DNA from: Natrinema versiforme
Lineage (GTDB): Archaea; Halobacteriota; Halobacteria; Halobacteriales; Natrialbaceae
Direction: 5' to 3'
NCBI RefSeq assembly: GCF_005576615.1
Contig: NZ_CP040330.1
Coordinates: forward strand, 1,612,001-1,676,000
Length of the DNA stretch: 64,000 bases
Part shown: piece by piece, positions 368 through 16,705 of the stretch
Layout: each line of letters starts with the position of its first letter
Position numbering within the stretch: position 1 is the first letter of the stretch
Program-made: the position numbers and the translations under genes
Notes under the pieces: generated by a model
The model's input: only the letters and a program-made list of their open reading frames with translations
The model's database searches: none
What the model was told of the DNA's origin: nothing

Positions 368-1216
368 CTACAGGTAGCTCTCGAGTTGTGCCATCGCGTC
401 CCGCGCCGCGCGGTCGGGTTCGTCGGGGTAGGTGTAGAGTTCCAGCGTGGCGAACCCGTCGTACCCGATGTCTGCGAGCGCGTCGAAGATCGCCCGGAAG
501 TCGATGTCGCCCTCGCCGGGGATCCGGTGGTAGTGTTTCCCCCGGCGGCCGCCGACGATGTCCTCGAGGTGGATGCCCGTGATGGAGCCGGCACTAGCGC
601 GGATGCTCTCGGGAACGTCCTCGCCGTAGACGGCCGCGTGGCCGATATCGAGGTTGATCCCGAGCGAGTCGCGGCCCATCTCGTCGATCAACTCGAGCGC
701 CTCGCTGGTGTTCTCGATCAGCAGTTCGGGTTCGAACTCGATGCCGACCTCGATGTCGCGGGGGTCGGCGTAGTCGAGGATCTCGTGCAGCGAGTCGCGG
801 AGGTACTCGCGGGCCTCCTCGGGCGGCGTCCCCGGAAGCGGCCGGCCGGTCGCCAGACAGACCGCCGGCGAGCCGACGGCCTCGGCGAGGTCGATCGCCC
901 GCTTCGTGTATTCGACGCGCCACTCGCGGGCCTCGTTGTCCGCCCGAATGACGCTCGGTTCGAAGAAGGCCGACGGCGGCGCGTCGTCGTAGTAGCCCAT
1001 CGCCGTGTTCGCGTTGACGTTCGAGACCGCGAGCCCAGTTTCGGAGATAGCCTCGAGGACGGCCTCGCGGTCGCCGTCGCCGAACTCCGGAAAGTAGGCG
1101 TGGGGGTCGTCGCCGAGCAGTTCGACGCCGGCATAGCCGTGGTCGGCGATCCGGCGAATCGCCGCCGGGAGCGAGTGGCGCGTGTACGCGTTCGTCGAAA
1201 AAGCGAGTTCGACCAT
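368..1216 (-). CDS. TIM-barrel sugar phosphate isomerase/epimerase (EboE-like paralogue 2)
   Basis: A 282-residue protein of the AP-endonuclease-2/xylose-isomerase-like TIM-barrel superfamily. The start MVELAFSTNAY at 1216 is chosen because a GGAG motif lies about 11 nt upstream and because it matches the start of the paralogue at 2266-3096. Probable metal ligands are the Glu of GIEFEPELL, the Asp/His of LDIGHAAVYGE, the His of GIHLED and the Glu of ATLELYTYP. The two proteins share this ligand order and a similar C-terminus (DGFATLELY here, DGFVTVELY there), so they look like a duplicated pair. It is the fourth gene of a minus-strand run TatD - TIM barrel - UbiA - TIM barrel. The family suits isomerisation or epimerisation of a sugar or cyclitol; the substrate is unknown. 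Confidence 0.85.
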   Translation of the reverse strand: MVELAFSTNAYTRHSLPAAIRRIADHGYAGVELLGDDPHAYFPEFGDGDREAVLEAISETGLAVSNVNANTAMGYYDDAPPSAFFEPSVIRADNEAREWRVEYTKRAIDLAEAVGSPAVCLATGRPLPGTPPEEAREYLRDSLHEILDYADPRDIEVGIEFEPELLIENTSEALELIDEMGRDSLGINLDIGHAAVYGEDVPESIRASAGSITGIHLEDIVGGRRGKHYHRIPGEGDIDFRAIFDALADIGYDGFATLELYTYPDEPDRAARDAMAQLESYL

Positions 1217-1283
1217 CGATCTGCGTCTCCTACACCGGAGCGCCACTAATTCGTTGGCCCGTCACACTCGAGGGGCGACCGAA

Positions 1284-2264
1284 CTACGTCACGTCGAACA
1301 CCCGCGAGAGGCCCACCGCCGGGACGAGGAAGACGCCAGCGGCGACCGCCCAACGGAGTCCGGCCGCGGCGGCAAAGGCCGCGTCGAGCAACACCAGTCC
1401 GAGGATACAGGCACCGACCGCTGGCCCGACGGTGCTCGGCACCGGATCGGCGTGTGCGGCTCGCAGGGGCCGGCCGACCCACCAGCAGAACGCGGCGGTA
1501 AACGCGAGGGCGACCGCCGTCTCGAGCCGCGACGGGCCGACAGTCACGAGATACCAGCCGACGGCGAGCACCGCTGCAACGGCACCCGCAGCGGCGACGC
1601 TGACAGCGCCCCGGTTGCCGCCCTCGGTCTCTCGAGCGGCCATGAACGTGACCGCGGCGATGTAGCCGGTGACGACCGCGGGGACGGCGAGCAGTCGGTT
1701 CGGGGACTCGAGGAGCGCGCTCCCGGCGGCGGTCGTCCCGAGGACGACGTTCAGCCCGCGCGTCGCACCCATCGCGAGGAAGCCGGCGGCGGTCCCCTTC
1801 AGGAGTCCGTCGTAGGCGACGATCGCGAGGGCGATCAGTCCGGCGGCAACGGCACCGGGGCCGCCCGCGACGACGCCGGCGAGGGCGACGGCGGCGAGCA
1901 ACAATGCGACCCCGAGCGCGAACGCGGCTCGCCGCGAGACGCGACCGGAGGGGATCGGGCGTTCGGGCCGTTCGCGCGCGTCGATCGGCGCGTCGAACGC
2001 GTCGTTGAGCGTCGTGCCGGCGGCATAGAGGAGGACCGAACAGCCCGCGAGCCCGCCGACCGTACCCGGCTGCGGGTCGGAGCCGACGGCGGCCACGAGC
2101 GCGGCTCCGAGGATCACGTCCGGCGGCGCCGTACAGAGGTTCGGGACGCGGATCAGCGCCGCGTACGCACCGACCGTGGCCCGCAGACCGGCGTCCGTGT
2201 CAGTCTCCTCGAGGGCGTCCGAATCGCCGTTTTCGTCGGCTCCCGACCGGACGCAACCGGCCAC
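1284..2264 (-). CDS. UbiA-family prenyltransferase, EboC-like
   Basis: A 326-residue polytopic membrane protein. The first Asp-rich UbiA motif is N87-D88-x2-D91-x3-D95, followed by ERPERPIPSGRVS, the pattern recalled for EboC-type UbiA proteins. The second conserved region is YDGLLKGTAAGF with MGATRGLNVVLG (residues 151-176). UbiA enzymes move a polyprenyl or geranylgeranyl group onto an acceptor in the membrane using Mg2+. A GTG start at 2264 lies one base after the stop of the upstream TIM-barrel gene, so the two are almost certainly translated from one mRNA. The first ~30 residues are acidic and not membrane-like. The acceptor is unknown; a cyclitol made by the linked INO1 gene is a reasonable guess. 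Confidence 0.87.
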   Translation of the reverse strand: MAGCVRSGADENGDSDALEETDTDAGLRATVGAYAALIRVPNLCTAPPDVILGAALVAAVGSDPQPGTVGGLAGCSVLLYAAGTTLNDAFDAPIDARERPERPIPSGRVSRRAAFALGVALLLAAVALAGVVAGGPGAVAAGLIALAIVAYDGLLKGTAAGFLAMGATRGLNVVLGTTAAGSALLESPNRLLAVPAVVTGYIAAVTFMAARETEGGNRGAVSVAAAGAVAAVLAVGWYLVTVGPSRLETAVALAFTAAFCWWVGRPLRAAHADPVPSTVGPAVGACILGLVLLDAAFAAAAGLRWAVAAGVFLVPAVGLSRVFDVT

Positions 2265-2265
2265 C

Positions 2266-3096
2266 CTACGCCCACCCGTGTTCCTCGAGGTAGGCCATCG
2301 CCTCCTGTGCGGTCTCGATCGCCGTCTCCTCGTAGGGGTAGAGTTCGACGGTGACGAACCCGTCGTAGCCCCGATCCTCGAGTTCGGCGAGAAAGCCGTC
2401 GATGTCCATCGCCCCGTCGCCGAGTTGCGTGTGTTCGTGGGTCCGGTCGGCCGGGATGTCCTCGAGGTGGTAGTGTTCCGTGTGCTCCCAGAGGGGTTCG
2501 ACTAGCTCGGCCGGGTCCTCGCCGACCGAGTAGAAGTGACCGGCATCGAAGTTACACTTCACGCTCGGCGAGTCGACCCGCTCGAGGAGTTCGAGGAACT
2601 CCTCGCCGGTCTCGATCAGCAGGTCGGGTTCGGGTTCGACGAGCAGGTCGACGCCGAGTTCCTCGGCTTTCGGGATGACTTGCTCGAGACTGTCGACGAA
2701 GGTATCCAGTGCCCACTCCCGCGATTTCCCGTCGGGGATCGGCCCGCCGGGTTCGATCGAGATGTAGTCGTGGCCGAGGTCGGCCGCGGTCTCGAGCGCC
2801 GCGAGGGTGTAGTCGATCCGTCGCTGCCGGTACTCCTCGTCGGGTTCGATGTAGGAGGGGTGGTGAAAGCCCTCGATCGCGGTCAGCATGAACGCGTTGG
2901 CGTTGCTGATGGCGATCCCGTGTCGCTCGAGGACCTCGGTGACGCGCTCGCGTTCCTCGTCGGTGGCATCGGGCGGATACAGGTGCGGTTCGTCGAGCAG
3001 GATTTCGACGCCGTCGTAGCCCGCGTCGGCGATCGACTCGATGGCGTCCTCGAGTTGGTACTCCCGGAACGCGTTGGTGGAGAAGCCAAACCGCAT
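2266..3096 (-). CDS. TIM-barrel sugar phosphate isomerase/epimerase (EboE-like paralogue 1)
   Basis: 276 residues, MRFGFSTNAFREYQLEDAI at the start, same superfamily as the protein at 368-1216. Probable metal ligands are Glu in LLVEPEPDLLIE, Asp/His in NFDAGHFYSVGE, His in HYHLEDIPADRTHEHTQLGD and the C-terminal Glu in FVTVELYPYEE. The region after the His ligand carries extra histidines (RTHEH) that the paralogue lacks, so the two copies may use different substrates. The ATG lies 2 bases after the TatD stop and the gene ends 1 base before the UbiA start, a tight operon. In characterised ebo clusters the gene of this family is eboE; the reaction is not known. Confidence 0.86.
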   Translation of the reverse strand: MRFGFSTNAFREYQLEDAIESIADAGYDGVEILLDEPHLYPPDATDEERERVTEVLERHGIAISNANAFMLTAIEGFHHPSYIEPDEEYRQRRIDYTLAALETAADLGHDYISIEPGGPIPDGKSREWALDTFVDSLEQVIPKAEELGVDLLVEPEPDLLIETGEEFLELLERVDSPSVKCNFDAGHFYSVGEDPAELVEPLWEHTEHYHLEDIPADRTHEHTQLGDGAMDIDGFLAELEDRGYDGFVTVELYPYEETAIETAQEAMAYLEEHGWA

Positions 3097-3098
3097 CG

Positions 3099-3899
3099 TC
3101 AGGCCTCGTAGTCGAAGTTCGGCGACTGGTCGAAGAACTCGTAGGGGTTCTCGAAGACGACTTTCCGCACGTCCTCGCGGTCCCAGCCCCGGTCGAGCAT
3201 CATGTCGCGGGCCTTCGGCACCGCCAGCGGGTCCGAGGGATCCCAGTCCGCCGCGCTGTTGAAGATCATGTTATCGGTGCCGTACTCCTCGAGCAGGTCG
3301 ATCGCCGACTCGGCCTCGATCTTGCCGGGGTAGAGCGTGAAGCCGATCCAGCAGTCCGTTCGCGTCGAAATATCGATCGTGTTCTCGGTGTTGTGATCGA
3401 TGATGATTCGCTCTTGGGTGACTCCCATCTCCTCGATGATCTCGACGATGCGCTCGGTCCCCGACGGCTTGTCCGTGTGGGGCGTGTGGATGATGACGGG
3501 AAGCTCGCGGTCCTCCGCGATCTCGAGCTGGCGGCGGAACGCCCACTCCTCGTCGTCGGTGACCTGATCGAAGCCGATCTCGCCGACGCCGACGACGGGG
3601 TCGCGGTCGAGATACTCCGGAATCCGGTCGACGACTTCCTCGGCCATCTCGCGGTAGTTGGCTTCCTTGGGCTCTAAGCCGATCGTGACGTAGTGGTCCA
3701 TGCCGGCGGCCCGCTCGGCGCGGTCGGTCTCGTGTTCGATAATCTGCTCGAAGTAATCGAAGAACGACCCCGCGTTGTGTTTGTCCTGACCGCTCCAGAA
3801 GGCGGGCTCGATACAGCACTCGATACCGGCCCGTCGCGCTCGCCGGTAGTCGTCGGCCGAGCGCGATACCATATGCATGTGAGGATCGATAATCCGCAT
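3099..3899 (-). CDS. TatD-family metal-dependent hydrolase, EboB-like
   Basis: 266 residues of the amidohydrolase superfamily. Metal-binding elements appear in the expected order: HxH in IIDPHMHM near the N-terminus, Glu in VVGVGEIGFD, His in IIHTPHTDK, His in IIIDHNTENT, and Asp in NSAADWDPSD. Classical TatD proteins are nucleases, but the ebo-cluster relative (EboB) is thought to act on a small molecule. This is the first gene of the minus-strand operon, and the 301-bp gap upstream separates it from the divergent INO1 gene. The assignment to EboB rather than a generic TatD rests on the neighbouring UbiA, TIM-barrel and phosphodiesterase genes. Confidence 0.85.
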   Translation of the reverse strand: MRIIDPHMHMVSRSADDYRRARRAGIECCIEPAFWSGQDKHNAGSFFDYFEQIIEHETDRAERAAGMDHYVTIGLEPKEANYREMAEEVVDRIPEYLDRDPVVGVGEIGFDQVTDDEEWAFRRQLEIAEDRELPVIIHTPHTDKPSGTERIVEIIEEMGVTQERIIIDHNTENTIDISTRTDCWIGFTLYPGKIEAESAIDLLEEYGTDNMIFNSAADWDPSDPLAVPKARDMMLDRGWDREDVRKVVFENPYEFFDQSPNFDYEA

Positions 3900-4200
3900 A
3901 CCGGCCGTGCCACGAGCGACCGGTTTGGTGCTGTGATCGTTCGATCGGCAAACGCGAGGTTGAAAACGGCGAATCAGTCACTTCCGACGGCGGAATACGG
4001 CGTTACGAGCGACCAACTCCGTATTACTCCTGCTACGCGAGTCATAACGAAAGCCGTTCGGACCCCACCATCGCGGGAATGACCCGACGCGAACGAACGA
4101 CGGCAGTGGCGTATCCGCCGCGGATCGGCCCCGACACCGAGGGCGGCCGAAACGCGTCGACAGTCCGGATCGAACGGCCGTCGGGAGGGGATGAGACCCG
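3900..4200. other. Divergent intergenic region between the two arms of the ebo-like cluster
   Basis: 301 bp between the divergent starts of the TatD-like gene (3899) and INO1 (4201), so it must hold promoters for both arms. No confident TATA box or operator was picked out by eye. A GGAGG at 4184-4188 lies 12 nt before the INO1 ATG and is a plausible Shine-Dalgarno site, which argues for a leadered INO1 transcript. No coding frame here looks real. Confidence 0.55.
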
Positions 4201-5421
4201 ATGACCGACAGGCGAGAGCAACCGGCCGACGGCGCAGACCGAACGGGCGTCTGGCTCGTCGGTGCACGCGGCAACGTCGCGACGATGTCGATCGTCGGTG
4301 CCCGCGCGATCGCTCGCGGACTGACTGGGACGACCGGAATGGTCACGGAACGCGAGCCGGTCGCGAGTCTCGACCTGCCGCCGGTCGACGGGCTCGTCTT
4401 CGGCGGCCACGACATCGCTCCGGAGTCGCTCGTCGCCCAAGCCGAACGCCAGCGCGACCGGAACGGCGTCCCCGACGCCGAGACGCTCGCCGCCGTCCGG
4501 GACGATCTGGCCGAGATCGACGACCGGATCGAGGTCGGGACGGCGGTCAACTGCGGCGCGGCCGTCTCCGAGGACAGCGAACGACTGGACGAGAGCCTCG
4601 CCGTCCGGGACGTCGTCGATCAGATCCGGGACGACTACGAGACGTTCCGCGAGCGCCACGACCTCGAGCGATTGGTCGTCGTCAACGTCGCCTCGACCGA
4701 ACCCGAACTGGCGGCACCCGAGCGGTACGACACCCGCGACGCCCTCGAACGGGCGATCGACGAGGACGACCGCGACCTGCCGGCGAGCGTGCTCTATACC
4801 TACGCCGCGATCGATGGCGGCCACCCGTTCGTCAACTTCACGCCGAGTACGGGCAACACGCTCGGCGGGATCCGCGAACTCGCGACCGCGAAGGATGTCC
4901 CTCACATGGGTCGCGACGCCAAGACCGGCGAGACGCTCGTCAAGTCCGCGCTCGCCCCGATGTTCGCCGGGCGAAACCTGCAGGTGATGAGCTGGGAGGG
5001 CCACAATATCCTCGGCAACAAGGACGGACTCGTGCTCGAGGACGAGGAAAACGCCGCCGGCAAACTCTCGAGCAAGGGTGACGTGCTCGACTCGATCCTC
5101 CCCGACATCGGCCACAATCGGGTCCGGATCGACTACACGCCCTCGCTGGCCGACTGGAAGACGGCGTGGGACTACATTCACTTCGAGGGCTTCCTCGACA
5201 CGGAGATGACAATGCAGTTCACGTGGGAGGGGTCGGACTCCGCGCTGGCCGCGCCGCTGGTCCTCGATCTGGTACGACTGGTCGCCCACGCCGACGAACA
5301 CGGGAACGGGGGGCTCCAGCCCCAGCTCGCGTCCTTTTTCAAGGCCCCCATCGGGGTCGACGAACACGACTTCTCCCGCCAACTGGACCGTCTGTACGAC
5401 TACGCCGAGCAGCATCGCTGA
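4201..5421 (+). CDS. Inositol-3-phosphate synthase (INO1 family)
   Basis: 406 residues. The N-terminal Rossmann motif is VWLVGARGNVAT (residues about 17-28). Later signature segments are NFTPSTGNT, the Lys-rich active-site stretch KTGETLVKSALAPMFAGR and SWEGHNILGNKDGLVL, all hallmarks of myo-inositol-1(3)-phosphate synthase. The enzyme cyclises glucose 6-phosphate to inositol phosphate with catalytic NAD+. The ATG at 4201 is preceded by GGAGG. It is divergent from the TatD/TIM-barrel/UbiA operon and followed 55 bp later by a phosphodiesterase/phosphatase that could dephosphorylate its product. In canonical ebo clusters the carbocycle-forming position is held by a dehydroquinate-synthase-like EboD; INO1 may play that part here (inference). 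Confidence 0.93.
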   Translation: MTDRREQPADGADRTGVWLVGARGNVATMSIVGARAIARGLTGTTGMVTEREPVASLDLPPVDGLVFGGHDIAPESLVAQAERQRDRNGVPDAETLAAVRDDLAEIDDRIEVGTAVNCGAAVSEDSERLDESLAVRDVVDQIRDDYETFRERHDLERLVVVNVASTEPELAAPERYDTRDALERAIDEDDRDLPASVLYTYAAIDGGHPFVNFTPSTGNTLGGIRELATAKDVPHMGRDAKTGETLVKSALAPMFAGRNLQVMSWEGHNILGNKDGLVLEDEENAAGKLSSKGDVLDSILPDIGHNRVRIDYTPSLADWKTAWDYIHFEGFLDTEMTMQFTWEGSDSALAAPLVLDLVRLVAHADEHGNGGLQPQLASFFKAPIGVDEHDFSRQLDRLYDYAEQHR

Positions 5422-5476
5422 TGCGTCTGACTACCCCGTTCGACCGCACGACTGCGATGTCTGATACCCAGAACCA

Positions 5477-6865
5477 ATGACAGACCCCACCATCGCCGAG
5501 ACGACCGACAGTGCAGACCGCGTGATCGTCCTCGATGTCGTCGGCCTCCAGCCACAGCACATCGACGCCGACCGAACGCCGACCCTCGAGTCACACTTCC
5601 CGTCCGACTCAGTGACCGACCTCCGGCCGCCGTTCCCCGCGGTGACGGTGCCGGCCCAGACGACGCTGGCAACCGGGCGCGGTCCCGCCGAGCACGGCGA
5701 CGTCTCGAGCGGCGAGTACGACCGCGAGCGCCAGACGGCCGCGTTCTGGGAGCGCGACCGCGACGGCCGCGATCGCATCTGGGAGACGGCCAGCGAGGCG
5801 GGACTGACCACCGGCGTCCTGAACTTCCAGCACCTGATCGGAACGAGCGCCGACATCGCGCTCACCCCCTCGCCGATCGAGGACGAGGACAACAATATGC
5901 TCGAGATGAACTGCTGGACCAACCCCAACGGCTTCTACGACGACCTCCGGGACGACCTGGACCACTTCCCGCTGCACAACTACTGGGGTCCCGGCGCGAA
6001 CGAGGAGGGGAGCCGCTGGATCCTCTCGGCCGCGAGCGAGGCGATCGAGCGCTTCGATCCCGACCTGCTCTGGGTCTACGTCCCGCATCTGGATTACGTC
6101 GGCCAGAGCAACGGCCCCGGGAGCAACGCCTTCGACGAGGAACTCGCGGTCGTCGACGACCTCCTCGCGGACTTCCTCACCGACCTGTCCGAAACCGACC
6201 GCTGGGACGAGACCCTGCTCACCCTCGTCAGCGAGTACGGCTTTCACGACGTGGACCGACCAGTGTTTCCCAACCGCGCACTCCGCGAGGCCGGGCTGCT
6301 CGAGACGGGAGGAGACGGCGACGTCGACATCCCCGGATCGGACGCGTTCGCCATGGTCGACCACCAGATCGCACACGTCTACGCCGACCCGGACGCGGTC
6401 GCCGACGCCCGCGACGCGCTCGCCGATCTCGAGGGCGTCGATGCCGTCCTCGAGGAGTCGGGCAAGGGGGAGTACGGCATCGATCACCTCAACGCGGGCG
6501 AACTCGTCCTCGTGGCGGATCGGGACGCGTGGTTCCAGTACTACTGGTGGGACGACCGCGCGGCCGCGCCCCCGTACGCGACCGACATGGACATCCACAA
6601 GAAACCGGGCTTCGACCCCTGCGAACTCTTCTTCGGCGACGAGGGACTCGTCTCGCTCGACGCCGCGCAGGTCAGCGGCTCCCACGGCCGCGTCGACGAG
6701 TCCGCGCTCGGCACGTTCGGTCTCGGCGGCCCGGCCGCGCCCGCGCTCGAGGGCGACGAGCCGGTCGACGCGACCGACGTGACCCCGACGATCGCGGATC
6801 TGCTCGGGCTCGAGGGTGAGCTCTCGATGGCCTTCGAGGGCACGTCGCTTCGTCAGGAAGACTGA
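5477..6865 (+). CDS. Alkaline phosphatase / nucleotide pyrophosphatase family protein, EboF-like
   Basis: 462 residues of the type I phosphodiesterase/nucleotide pyrophosphatase branch of the alkaline phosphatase superfamily. Visible elements are the N-terminal metal Asp in VIVLDVVGLQ, the nucleophile region FPAVTVPAQTTLATG (Thr), VPHLDYVGQSN with Asp/His-type ligands, the SEYGFHDVDRP motif, and a late His in SGSHGRVDES. No signal peptide is seen, so it should act in the cytoplasm. It is 55 bp after INO1 on the same strand. In ebo clusters the homologue is EboF. A role in releasing phosphate from an inositol phosphate or a nucleotide-activated intermediate is inference. Confidence 0.87.
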   Translation: MTDPTIAETTDSADRVIVLDVVGLQPQHIDADRTPTLESHFPSDSVTDLRPPFPAVTVPAQTTLATGRGPAEHGDVSSGEYDRERQTAAFWERDRDGRDRIWETASEAGLTTGVLNFQHLIGTSADIALTPSPIEDEDNNMLEMNCWTNPNGFYDDLRDDLDHFPLHNYWGPGANEEGSRWILSAASEAIERFDPDLLWVYVPHLDYVGQSNGPGSNAFDEELAVVDDLLADFLTDLSETDRWDETLLTLVSEYGFHDVDRPVFPNRALREAGLLETGGDGDVDIPGSDAFAMVDHQIAHVYADPDAVADARDALADLEGVDAVLEESGKGEYGIDHLNAGELVLVADRDAWFQYYWWDDRAAAPPYATDMDIHKKPGFDPCELFFGDEGLVSLDAAQVSGSHGRVDESALGTFGLGGPAAPALEGDEPVDATDVTPTIADLLGLEGELSMAFEGTSLRQED

Positions 6866-7068: not shown

Positions 7069-7143
7069 GCTCCGTTGGTGTAGTCCGGCCAATCATTTCG
7101 GCCTTTCGAGCCGATGACCTGGGTTCAAATCCCAGACGGAGCA
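7069..7143 (+). tRNA. tRNA-Glu (UUC)
   Basis: A 75-nt cloverleaf: acceptor GCTCCGT (7069-7075) pairs with ACGGAGC (7136-7142), with A7143 as discriminator. The anticodon stem TCGGC/GCCGA encloses the loop CTTTCGA, with anticodon TTC at 7105-7107. The T arm is CTGGG-TTCAAAT-CCCAG. No CCA is encoded and no intron is seen. The DNA just downstream has several broken copies of its 3' half, suggesting it has served as an integration site. Confidence 0.96.
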
Positions 7144-7184
7144 CTCTTCTGAGGAACGACGTGACGAAGAAGGAAGCGCACGCT

Positions 7185-7608: not shown

Positions 7609-8433
7609 GTGTCCTCTCGTCTCTCCCGTTTCACAGATCGTCTCGTAACGCTGGCACAACGCGCTGTCTCAGGTGATCCTGCGCCAGCAGTCAAGAAGGG
7701 TGACGGCGGCTACGCTGACTGGGTCATTATTGTGACCCACGGTCTCCGCGAATACCTCGACCTGCCATATCGACGGCTCCTTGATGTCCTTCACGAGATG
7801 CCCGGTATCGTCGAGAAGATGAGTCTCAACGTCAGCCAACTGCCGGACTTTACGACCGTGTGCGCACGGAACCAGCAGCTCCAGATGACGATCTGGCGAA
7901 CTCTGCTTCAGCTCTCTGCCGATCTTCACGATACCGGCGAGGTACAGGCTATCGACGCGACTGGCTTCGACCGGCACTCGGCCAGTCGTCACTACGCAAA
8001 TCGGACAAACTACACCTTCAGATCGGTGAAGACGACTGCGTTAGTTGATTGTGAGACCGGTGCTGTGTTGGATGTCCATTGCTCAATGAAGCAACCGCAC
8101 GACACGCAAGTCGGACGGCAAGTACTTACACGGAACCTCGACCAGCTTCAGACGGTCACTGCCGACAAAGGCTACGACTGGGACGCCCTTCGTCAGCGCC
8201 TACGGGAGGCAGATGTTCGCCCTGTGATCAAGCATCGTGAGTTTGTGCCATTAGATGTAGCTTATAACGTTCGCCAAGATAACAATACCTATCATTACCG
8301 GTCTGCGGTCGAGGCGATCTTTTTCGCTCTCAAACAACGGTATAGCGATACGCTCCGAGCACGAACGTGGTTCGGTCAGTTCCGCGAAATTGTGTTAAAA
8401 TCCGTTGCTCGAAATATCGAGATTGCTATCTGA
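7609..8433 (+). CDS. IS5-family transposase (ISH1-like group)
   Basis: 274 residues from a GTG start. The DDE-type catalytic core is recognisable: first Asp in VQAIDATGFDRH, second Asp in TVTADKGYDWDALRQR, and the Glu region in NTYHYRSAVEAIFFALKQRY, with the Y-x2-R-x3-E (YRSAVEAIF) and K signature of IS4/IS5-type enzymes. The N-terminal part (FTDRLVTLAQRAVSG) matches haloarchaeal IS5/ISH1-type proteins as I recall them. The frame is intact, so the protein is probably functional. It moves the element whose inverted repeats lie at 7536 and 9485. The exact IS name cannot be fixed without a database search. Confidence 0.92.
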   Translation: MSSRLSRFTDRLVTLAQRAVSGDPAPAVKKGDGGYADWVIIVTHGLREYLDLPYRRLLDVLHEMPGIVEKMSLNVSQLPDFTTVCARNQQLQMTIWRTLLQLSADLHDTGEVQAIDATGFDRHSASRHYANRTNYTFRSVKTTALVDCETGAVLDVHCSMKQPHDTQVGRQVLTRNLDQLQTVTADKGYDWDALRQRLREADVRPVIKHREFVPLDVAYNVRQDNNTYHYRSAVEAIFFALKQRYSDTLRARTWFGQFREIVLKSVARNIEIAI

Positions 8434-14557: not shown

Positions 14558-16705
14558 TTACGACTCGGTCGTCTCGTTCGGCTCGTTCGTCTCGTTTCCG
14601 TCCGCCTCGGCTTCCGCTTCGGTTTCGGGCTCTCGCTCGACTTCCGTCTCGTTTTCCTCGGCGGACTCCGGTTCGTCGTCGGCCGTCTCCGATTCGTCGT
14701 CGGCCGTTTCGCCGTCCGTCTCGTCCGCCGGGACGATCCGGTGAACCGCGCCGTCGCCCTCGACCGTCGGCGTGCTGGTGGTGAGGACGTACAGTTCGCC
14801 GTCGGCGTCCCGGCCGAAGCCGTAGACGAGTTGGGTCGGCCGTCCGTCTTCGGCGGCCTCGCCTTCGACCTGCAGTTGCTCGATGGGCCACAGTCCGTCC
14901 CCGGTCGTCCCACCGTCAGCGTCGCTTTCCGTCTCGGTACCGGTCTCCGTCTCGTTGGCGGTCTCGTTGGCGGTCTCGGTTTCGTTCCCGCCGTCGTCGG
15001 TCGGCGGATCGAGGAACATATCCTCGAGGTCATCGCCATCCCCATCGTCGCCGTCGGTCGCTCCCGCTTGGGGACGGGCGAGGAACAGCGTTCCCGGCCC
15101 CTCGCCGTCCTGGCTCCAGTCGCCGAAGACGTACGTCCCCTCGAGTTCGTCGATCTCGTCGCCCTCGTAGAGGTAGCCGCCGGTAATGGAGACGCCGATC
15201 GCCCCGTCGTCACCGGTGTCCTCGCCGCCGCCGTTCTCGCCCTCACCCTCGGCACCGTCGGACTCGAGGATGCCGCGTTCGTGGGGGTACTCGATGACCG
15301 GATCGAGCAGCGGTTCGCCGGCGCGTGGGTCGCCGGCGTCCTCGCTGACCTCATCGGGGCAGTCCTCGGGCGGCTCCGTGGGGGTTTCCGTACTGAAACA
15401 GTGGGCCCCCTCCTTGACGTTCCAGCTGTAGTTGCCGCCGCGCTGGACGTGATTGACGCTCTCGAAGAGTTCCTGTCCGACGTCCGCGAGCAGGAACTCG
15501 CCCTCGCCGGTAAAGGAGAACTCGCCCCACGGGTTGCGCATCCCCCACGCGTAGTACTCGTCGCGGTGTCCTTCGGCATCGACCAGCGGGTTGTCGTCCG
15601 GAATTCCGTAGGCTCGCTCGTCGCTTTCGACATCGATGTCGAGCCGCAAGACGCCGCCGAGGAGGGTCTCCTCGGTGTCCTGTCCGTTGCCGCCCTCGTT
15701 GTCGTCGTACCAGTCCTCGACGTGGCCCTCGTCCGTGTCGTTCGCGCCGCCCCCGTCGCCCGTGGCCACGTAGAGGTAGCCGTCGGGACCGAACGCGATC
15801 GTGCCGGAGTTGTGGTTGAACTGCGGCTCCGGGATCTCGAGGATCGTCCGTTCGGAGTCGGGATCGGCGGTCGAATGGTCGTCGTCCGCCGTCCGGAACT
15901 CCGAGAGGACGAACGTGTGATCGTACTCCTCCGGCGTTCCCTCCCGCGGTGGCGAGCTATACCGGACGAAGAACCGCCCGTTCTCCTCGAAATCGGGGTG
16001 GAACGCGAGCCCGAGGAGGCCGCGCTCGTCGAAGTCCTGAAACTCGATGAGCTGATCCGTGACGTCGAGGAACGGCTCTTCCCGCAGTCCGTCCTCGTCG
16101 TGGACGTAGATGTACCCCGTCTGGTCGACGATGAAGCGGCGATCGGCCTCCTCGTCGGCGACCTGCAGCGTCACCGGCGCGGTCAGTTCGTCGGTGACCG
16201 TCTCGAGGCCGACCGCCGGTCCCTCGCCGATGAGTTGGTCGGACTCGCCGGTCCCGTCGCCGCCGGCCGCGTCGTCGACGAACTCGATATCGCCGCGCAT
16301 CGACTGCGGGTGCGGGCCGCAGTAGTACGTCGACATGCCCTCCTCCGCGGTGAACTCGACGGTCTGCGTTTCGCCCGCGTCCGCGAGGACGTCCGTCGCG
16401 ACGTAGTTCTCGCCCTCCGATTCGCCCTCGATGATGAAGTTGTGTCCGGCACCGTCCTGGTTCTCCCACGTGAGCGTATACTCCTCGCCGGCGACCAACT
16501 GGAGCGTCGGATTGCGTTCGTCCGCGATCGGCTCCGGCGAGACGCCGAGCCAGCCGCTCGTTCGCCCGCCGAGTTCGATCTCGCCGGTGATGGCGTCCTC
16601 CTGTGCCGCCGCCGGCAGCGCGAGGCCGGCCACGGAAAGCGCCGCAGTCGATCGGAGGACCGTCCGCCTCGAGGTCGCCCGTTTGGAGTCGTCGTTTCGT
16701 GTCAT
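14558..16705 (-). CDS. Cupredoxin-PQQ sugar (glucose/sorbosone) dehydrogenase fusion, Tat-exported
   Basis: 715 residues. A Tat signal (TSRRTVLRSTAALSVAGLAL) leads into a plastocyanin-like domain (about 37-147) with type 1 copper ligands His88, Cys129, His132 and Met136 (TYYCGPHPQSM). A soluble aldose sugar dehydrogenase propeller follows (about 160-660), with GLLGLAFHPDF, NHNSGTIAFGPDGYLYVATG, WGMRNPWGEFSF and LLADVGQELFESVN. The C-terminus is a low-complexity Glu/Thr/Asn tail. The fusion suggests electrons pass from PQQ straight to a bound copper. It converges with the PQQ propeller gene; both belong outside the membrane. Confidence 0.9.
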   Translation of the reverse strand: MTRNDDSKRATSRRTVLRSTAALSVAGLALPAAAQEDAITGEIELGGRTSGWLGVSPEPIADERNPTLQLVAGEEYTLTWENQDGAGHNFIIEGESEGENYVATDVLADAGETQTVEFTAEEGMSTYYCGPHPQSMRGDIEFVDDAAGGDGTGESDQLIGEGPAVGLETVTDELTAPVTLQVADEEADRRFIVDQTGYIYVHDEDGLREEPFLDVTDQLIEFQDFDERGLLGLAFHPDFEENGRFFVRYSSPPREGTPEEYDHTFVLSEFRTADDDHSTADPDSERTILEIPEPQFNHNSGTIAFGPDGYLYVATGDGGGANDTDEGHVEDWYDDNEGGNGQDTEETLLGGVLRLDIDVESDERAYGIPDDNPLVDAEGHRDEYYAWGMRNPWGEFSFTGEGEFLLADVGQELFESVNHVQRGGNYSWNVKEGAHCFSTETPTEPPEDCPDEVSEDAGDPRAGEPLLDPVIEYPHERGILESDGAEGEGENGGGEDTGDDGAIGVSITGGYLYEGDEIDELEGTYVFGDWSQDGEGPGTLFLARPQAGATDGDDGDGDDLEDMFLDPPTDDGGNETETANETANETETGTETESDADGGTTGDGLWPIEQLQVEGEAAEDGRPTQLVYGFGRDADGELYVLTTSTPTVEGDGAVHRIVPADETDGETADDESETADDEPESAEENETEVEREPETEAEAEADGNETNEPNETTES

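Follow-up and report, generated by a model that had tools for sequence, protein, structure and literature searches.

Introduction

The ebo operon (eboABCDEF) has been described in Bacteroidota, Cyanobacteria, Pseudomonadota and the plastids of eustigmatophyte algae (PMC5133447; PMC6282210), and in Nostoc its genes are needed to move the scytonemin monomer to the periplasm (PMC6282210). For clusters of the EboD type an isoprenoid-cyclitol was proposed by Yurchenko et al. (PMC5133447). A related actinobacterial cluster has already been annotated, since NCBI labels its UbiA protein "SCO3242 family prenyltransferase" and names its neighbors EboA and EboE. In this study we analyzed a cluster of six genes in the haloarchaeon Natrinema versiforme, located at 368-6865 of a stretch of 64,000 nucleotides (contig NZ_CP040330.1, positions 1,612,001 to 1,676,000; hereafter the window). 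An earlier reading made from the letters of this DNA (the sequence-only reading) had proposed an Ebo-related cluster here, a proposal that was borne out by the clade of the UbiA prenyltransferase, by synteny and by specific best matches to EboB and EboF. We propose, with a probability of roughly 0.55, that the six genes form a dedicated pathway that is an inositol-type relative of the bacterial ebo cluster, termed "MIPS-type" for its myo-inositol-1-phosphate synthase (MIPS).

Results

The haloarchaeal cluster resembles the eboABCDEF operon in having EboB-, EboC- and EboF-type genes side by side together with TIM-barrel genes, but it is without EboD and canonical EboE, EboA was not found in it, and it has instead a MIPS, two short barrels, a divergent layout and an archaeal host. 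The actinobacterial SCO3242-type cluster (Streptomyces loci L049, L050 and L181) contains MIPS, the SCO3242 prenyltransferase, a short barrel, EboA, EboB, EboE and EboF, and so has MIPS, UbiA, short barrel, EboB and EboF in common with the haloarchaeal one, from which it differs by its EboA, canonical EboE, single short barrel, one-directional operon and separate UbiA clade. The nearest bacterial gene set is that of a Myxococcota metagenome-assembled genome (L070: MIPS, short barrel, EboB and UbiA), in which the barrel groups with that of tim2 and the contig is without EboA, EboD and EboE; however, this 14 kb contig carries neither EboF nor a second barrel, and its genes run in a single direction. 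One of the Streptomyces clusters, the complete MIPS-type ebo cluster of L181 (plasmid of Streptomyces sp. AMCC400023, 1-13077), has an aromatase/cyclase and FAD monooxygenases a few genes away and looks as though it served an aromatic polyketide, which recalls the scytonemin case.

In the window, the six genes are arranged in two divergent runs, tatD-tim1-ubiA-tim2 to the left and MIPS-pde to the right (Table 1). Pfam searches recovered the two TIM barrels, the UbiA, the TatD and the phosphodiesterase of the sequence-only reading, all five in place and with the folds it had given them. Its gene list, however, had omitted the MIPS, which is the first gene of the rightward run and the most informative of the six because it occupies the place of EboD. 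The same reading correctly described two divergent runs; the near-zero spacing that it ascribed to them applies to ubiA, tim1 and tatD (gaps of 1-2 bp), but not to tim2-ubiA (~40-70 bp, depending on the start codon) or MIPS-pde (55 bp). The probable start of tim2 is the ATG at 1216, not the listed GTG.

To place the locus among the Halobacteria, 194 genomes were searched with the cluster UbiA (E <= 1e-20) and 16 kb was fetched around each of the 22 matches in other genomes. The cluster UbiA is present in 23 of the 194 genomes, the window's own included, and these belong to 13 genera. All six genes occur together within 16 kb in 21 of the 22 other cluster genomes, 19 of them with the order and divergence seen in the window; in a few genomes tim2 lies 2-5 kb from ubiA or at the opposite end. 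The gene order is thus conserved across genera, which the sequence-only reading had named as a test of its proposal. The flanking open reading frames (ORFs) are shared only among close relatives (genus or family), which rules out a wider conserved neighborhood and identifies the six genes as the unit; together with their co-localization in 21 of 22 genomes, it also argues that the cluster is not a product of chance. Identities to the window genes are highest for EboB (68-98%, making tatD the best-conserved gene of the cluster among Halobacteria), followed by MIPS (63-97%) and TIM2 (68-89%), with TIM1 at 57-92%, PDE at 56-92% and UbiA at 39-81%. Presence is patchy, with 5 of 15 sampled genomes of the window's own genus carrying the cluster. 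Elsewhere in the phylum, in a sample in which Halobacteria had been thinned and whose count is therefore not a frequency, a single extra TatD-like match (G362) was found, and it had no ebo neighbors.

The distribution of MIPS follows that of the cluster closely. PF01658 was detected in 24 of the 194 Halobacteria, comprising all 23 genomes with the cluster UbiA, at one copy each, and one further genome (G172), and MIPS is adjacent to the cluster in 22 of the 23. The linkage is strong and not absolute, since no ebo genes were found within 8 kb of a Halomarina MIPS that belongs to the same clade and is carried on a plasmid. The 4.67 Mb genome of N. versiforme encodes no PF01658 protein other than the cluster MIPS. 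The closest solved relative of this MIPS is the Archaeoglobus fulgidus enzyme (1u1i, 281 bits), whose catalytic lysines K274, K278, K306 and K367 all align with lysines. The MIPS of G172 (L171, 9218-10306, minus strand) adjoins a Gfo/Idh/MocA-like oxidoreductase and has no ebo genes around it, and it is of another, diverged type because the cluster MIPS found no match in that region (tblastn, 1e-4). On plasmids of Hymenobacter and Roseomonas (L177 and L179), a different MIPS clade has Gfo/Idh/MocA oxidoreductases and also a YcaO-like gene as neighbors, and these loci possibly represent another inositol-derived pathway.

MIPS is unrelated to the sugar phosphate cyclases of the EboD type, and both kinds of enzyme form a carbocycle from a sugar phosphate by means of NAD. 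Their occurrence in bacterial ebo clusters was examined in loci obtained by scanning one genome per species for 84,980 species with an EboB profile, from which a sample of the best 80 loci was taken and supplemented with eight plasmid loci, for a total of 88, with gene presence scored at a 100-bit threshold. EboD was present in 60 of these loci and MIPS in 13, and none had both. The short barrel showed the same division, as it accompanied MIPS in 13 of 13 loci and EboD in 0 of 60. Three more loci had a short barrel without MIPS; in two of these the contig was apparently cut nearby and the third, from Microbispora, was also without UbiA. The hosts of MIPS-type loci are Actinomycetota (including Streptomyces), Myxococcota, Gemmatimonadota and Halobacteria, the last through clusters such as that of the window, which has MIPS, short TIM barrel, EboB and UbiA and no EboD. 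That the two cyclases exclude each other in otherwise similar clusters suggests that both fill one step, and we think it likely that this exclusion is a general rule.

Consistent with an ebo relationship, a 71-row tree placed the haloarchaeal cluster UbiAs as one clade inside the group of bacterial EboC and SCO3242 proteins (SH-aLRT 98). Outside this group were DGGGP synthase, MenA, haem O synthase and the lycopene-elongase-like UbiAs of the same genomes, so that a menaquinone, haem or core-lipid enzyme is ruled out and the EboC-type assignment, for which the sequence-only reading had itself named such a tree as the test, stands. The tree was a quick one with some long branches, in which the inner order is not to be trusted and the names of the reference groups were assigned from sequences. 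Archaeal DGGGP synthase, the nearest outside clade, shares the UbiA superfamily and the NDxxDxxxD motif (intact in the cluster UbiA as NDAFDAPID), but is a separate clade, and the same genome carries one besides the cluster UbiA. Against the NCBIfam EboC model the cluster UbiA scored 189 bits, below the cut-off of 250; this cut-off is not decisive because an EboC from Azospirillum, encoded in a canonical ebo cluster, scored only 89. A second UbiA-family gene of the window (PF01040; 24788-25423, minus strand) groups with uncharacterized haloarchaeal UbiAs (L156, L162 and L163), not with the cluster UbiA.

The EboB and EboF assignments of the earlier reading hold by specific best match. The tatD product is 42-46% identical to bacterial EboB, with the HxH, GEIG (E), H, DH and D positions kept in the alignment, and it was the sole match in the genome to an Aureibacter EboB query (E 2.3e-79, 47% identity). 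Similarly, the pde product is 34-39% identical to six bacterial EboF proteins over ~420 residues, and a bacterial EboF query found it at 5e-72, with the next gene at 8e-5. EboD had no match in the window's genome, and the weak matches in 5 of the 23 cluster genomes all lay outside the cluster. A profile of canonical EboE (a barrel of ~390 amino acids) found nothing in the window's genome and no full match in the 23 cluster genomes, in which three weak partial matches fall by position on tim1. Six queries with bacterial EboA, a fast-evolving protein, gave no match in the haloarchaeal loci (tblastn, 1e-6).

The sequence-only reading had described the TIM barrel as an EboE present twice. The duplication was confirmed, as TIM1 and TIM2 are paralogs with 38% identity, and it is old because the two form separate clades that each span nearly all cluster genomes. 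The identity as EboE was not, and the tree, hhalign and the whole-genome search together rule out two EboE copies: TIM1 and TIM2 belong to a separate short family, matching the bacterial MIPS-linked short barrel with hhalign E-values of 3.5e-35 and 2e-36, versus partial matches to canonical EboE at 8e-10 and 5e-10. TIM2 is joined in the tree by the barrels from one Myxococcota and one gammaproteobacterial ebo locus (SH-aLRT 95). Residues E154, D184, H210 and E251 of tim1 are invariant among the aligned haloarchaeal copies. Predicted models of TIM1 and TIM2 (mean pLDDT 88 and 90) matched ketose 3-epimerases and many sugar isomerases with tied scores, which points to an isomerase-type fold; the fold alone gives no substrate.

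Table 1. Positions in the window of the cluster genes, the region between the two runs and a nearby dehydrogenase-like gene
Feature	Position	Strand	Description	Pfam match
tim2	368-1246	-	short xylose-isomerase-like TIM barrel, 292 amino acids (longest ORF)	PF01261, E 3e-46
ubiA	1284-2264	-	membrane prenyltransferase, EboC/SCO3242 clade	PF01040, 1.3e-19
tim1	2266-3096	-	second short TIM barrel	PF01261, 1.4e-47
tatD	3099-3899	-	EboB-type amidohydrolase	PF01026, 7.7e-20
divergent intergenic region	3900-4200	.	between tatD and MIPS	
MIPS	4201-5421	+	myo-inositol-1-phosphate (Ino1-type) synthase	PF07994, 7e-47; PF01658, 5e-33
pde	5477-6865	+	EboF-type alkaline-phosphatase-superfamily phosphodiesterase	PF01663, 3.8e-46
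glucose/sorbosone-dehydrogenase-like gene	15392-16177	-	also in loci L031, L032, L035, L036 and L041	PF07995

Most of the divergent intergenic region is variable across 10 related genomes. Its best-kept part is the block CTACGCGAGTCATAACGAAAGCCG at 4033-4056, which is a possible shared promoter or operator. Just past the pde end of the cluster are a tRNA-Glu gene and a DDE transposase (7069-7144 and 7609-8433); these neighbors and the patchy distribution would fit horizontal transfer of the cluster.

Genes for putatively secreted proteins resembling glucose/sorbosone dehydrogenases (GSDH-like) were found at distances of up to 15 kb from the cluster UbiA in 9 of the 23 genomes, from 8 genera. 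Thirteen such genes were observed in this interval against 0.65 expected from their genome-wide number, an enrichment of ~20-fold that was noticed post hoc and computed in the same 23 genomes. In three genomes a GSDH-like gene is inserted between ubiA and tim2. Several of the proteins have a plastocyanin-like domain and one has a recognized Tat signal. Just upstream of MIPS in the Myxococcota locus is a distant GSDH relative scoring slightly below the Pfam cut-off, and a Streptomyces locus has a ScyD/ScyE-family gene. By analogy with scytonemin maturation, this pattern would fit activity on the outer side of the membrane.

Discussion

We regard the gene content and synteny of the cluster, the clade of its UbiA and the identity of its barrels as very nearly certain. 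From family, fold and conserved motifs we infer the chemical steps and the biological role that follow. MIPS, judging by its family and kept catalytic lysines, would convert glucose 6-phosphate to an inositol phosphate. One or both of the short barrels, presumably metal-dependent, may then isomerize, epimerize or dehydrate the cyclitol or its ketone; that MIPS would leave a ring phosphate and a fixed stereochemistry may be the reason why an extra isomerase-type barrel always accompanies it. UbiA would attach the cyclitol to a prenyl chain within the membrane, and in haloarchaea this chain would most likely be geranylgeranyl; as UbiA lies near DGGGP synthase with its Asp motif intact, prenyl transfer to a hydroxylated, non-aromatic acceptor would fit. 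The EboB hydrolase and the EboF phosphodiesterase could supply hydrolytic and dephosphorylation steps, in either order. The expected product, an inositol-derived, prenylated and membrane-held cyclitol, is in our estimation an even bet. Such a molecule might serve to move or finish a metabolite at the outer face, although we consider an export role in haloarchaea, which is argued from Nostoc, rather doubtful.

In bacteria, the EboB/C/F core would work with the sugar phosphate cyclase EboD, which MIPS and the short barrel would replace, and the two therefore seem to be interchangeable carbocycle modules on a common core. This swap gives independent support to the isoprenoid-cyclitol proposal of Yurchenko et al. 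The broader conclusion, that two unrelated ring modules are exchanged in bacteria and archaea, that the ebo product is thus a prenylated cyclitol lipid and that its haloarchaeal version is inositol-derived, is one that we put forward tentatively.

It is important to note that several observations weigh against our proposal. Most of the MIPS-type loci belong to a single phylum, and the Fisher test of cyclase exclusion (1e-14) took no account of relatedness, so that its value is descriptive. In one haloarchaeal genome (G020) MIPS, though of the haloarchaeal clade and on the same contig, is 240 kb from UbiA, near which neither tim2 nor pde was found. A function shared with bacterial ebo is something we infer from three genes, because the searches recovered no EboA from the loci and, weak matches aside, no EboD or EboE from the genomes. 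The export role was observed in one cyanobacterium. Finally, flavobacterial EboC homologs farnesylate quinaldic acids in vitro (PMC9235831), which is no pointer to a cyclitol.

This last activity, exemplified by the farnesylation of 8-hydroxyquinaldic acid by the EboC homolog Ubi-297 (PMC9235831), leads to the strongest competing explanation, in which the prenyl group goes to an aromatic acceptor, for example a quinaldic acid, and MIPS and the barrels make its precursor in a small meroterpenoid pathway. AsbF, a barrel of the same superfamily that dehydrates 3-dehydroshikimate, was indeed among the structural matches of TIM1. However, the conserved six include no aromatase, oxygenase or gene for an amino-acid-derived ring, and the abstract of PMC9235831 reports aromatic acceptors without demonstrating that cyclitols are rejected, so we judge this explanation unlikely. 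Still less probable is that MIPS feeds ordinary polar lipids (archaetidylinositol) and that the ebo-like cluster it merely adjoins has a different function. In 2021 a survey (PMC8305020) did list a Haloferax MIPS, HVO_B0213, together with AisA (HVO_1297) in its polar-lipid table under inositol-headgroup synthesis, and the same survey cites a methanogen in which archaetidylinositol is made from CDP-archaeol and glucose 6-phosphate; yet a MIPS found in only 24 of 194 Halobacteria, tracking the cluster UbiA almost perfectly, and linked in the same way in bacterial MIPS-type ebo clusters is hard to reconcile with a general lipid function. An osmolyte or signaling cyclitol (e.g., di-myo-inositol phosphate) or inositol degradation is improbable, for although the MIPS is of the A. 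fulgidus type, the short barrels bear a likeness to sugar epimerases and a weaker one to IolI, and haloarchaea face osmotic stress, the six genes include no di-inositol-phosphate synthase or Iol pathway, UbiA would have no place in such a pathway, and EboB and EboF are conserved alongside.

The cyclase swap and the archaeal form of the cluster seem to be undescribed so far. Inositol is not mentioned in the ebo papers of Yurchenko (2016; PMC5133447) and Klicki (2018; PMC6282210), and our search of the open literature, which did not extend to subscription papers, found none joining ebo with inositol and none relevant on SCO3241-3243.

The proposal of a dedicated inositol-type pathway bears on a cluster that occurs in many bacteria and algal plastids with striking phenotypes. 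The exchange of non-homologous ring enzymes in four phyla suggests that the step they catalyze must deliver a cyclitol, which would focus the search for the ebo product on a prenyl lipid derived from inositol, one that could be labeled and looked for in tractable haloarchaea and Streptomyces. For annotation, the inositol-phosphate synthase of Halobacteria looks to be tied to this cluster, and not to general inositol lipids.

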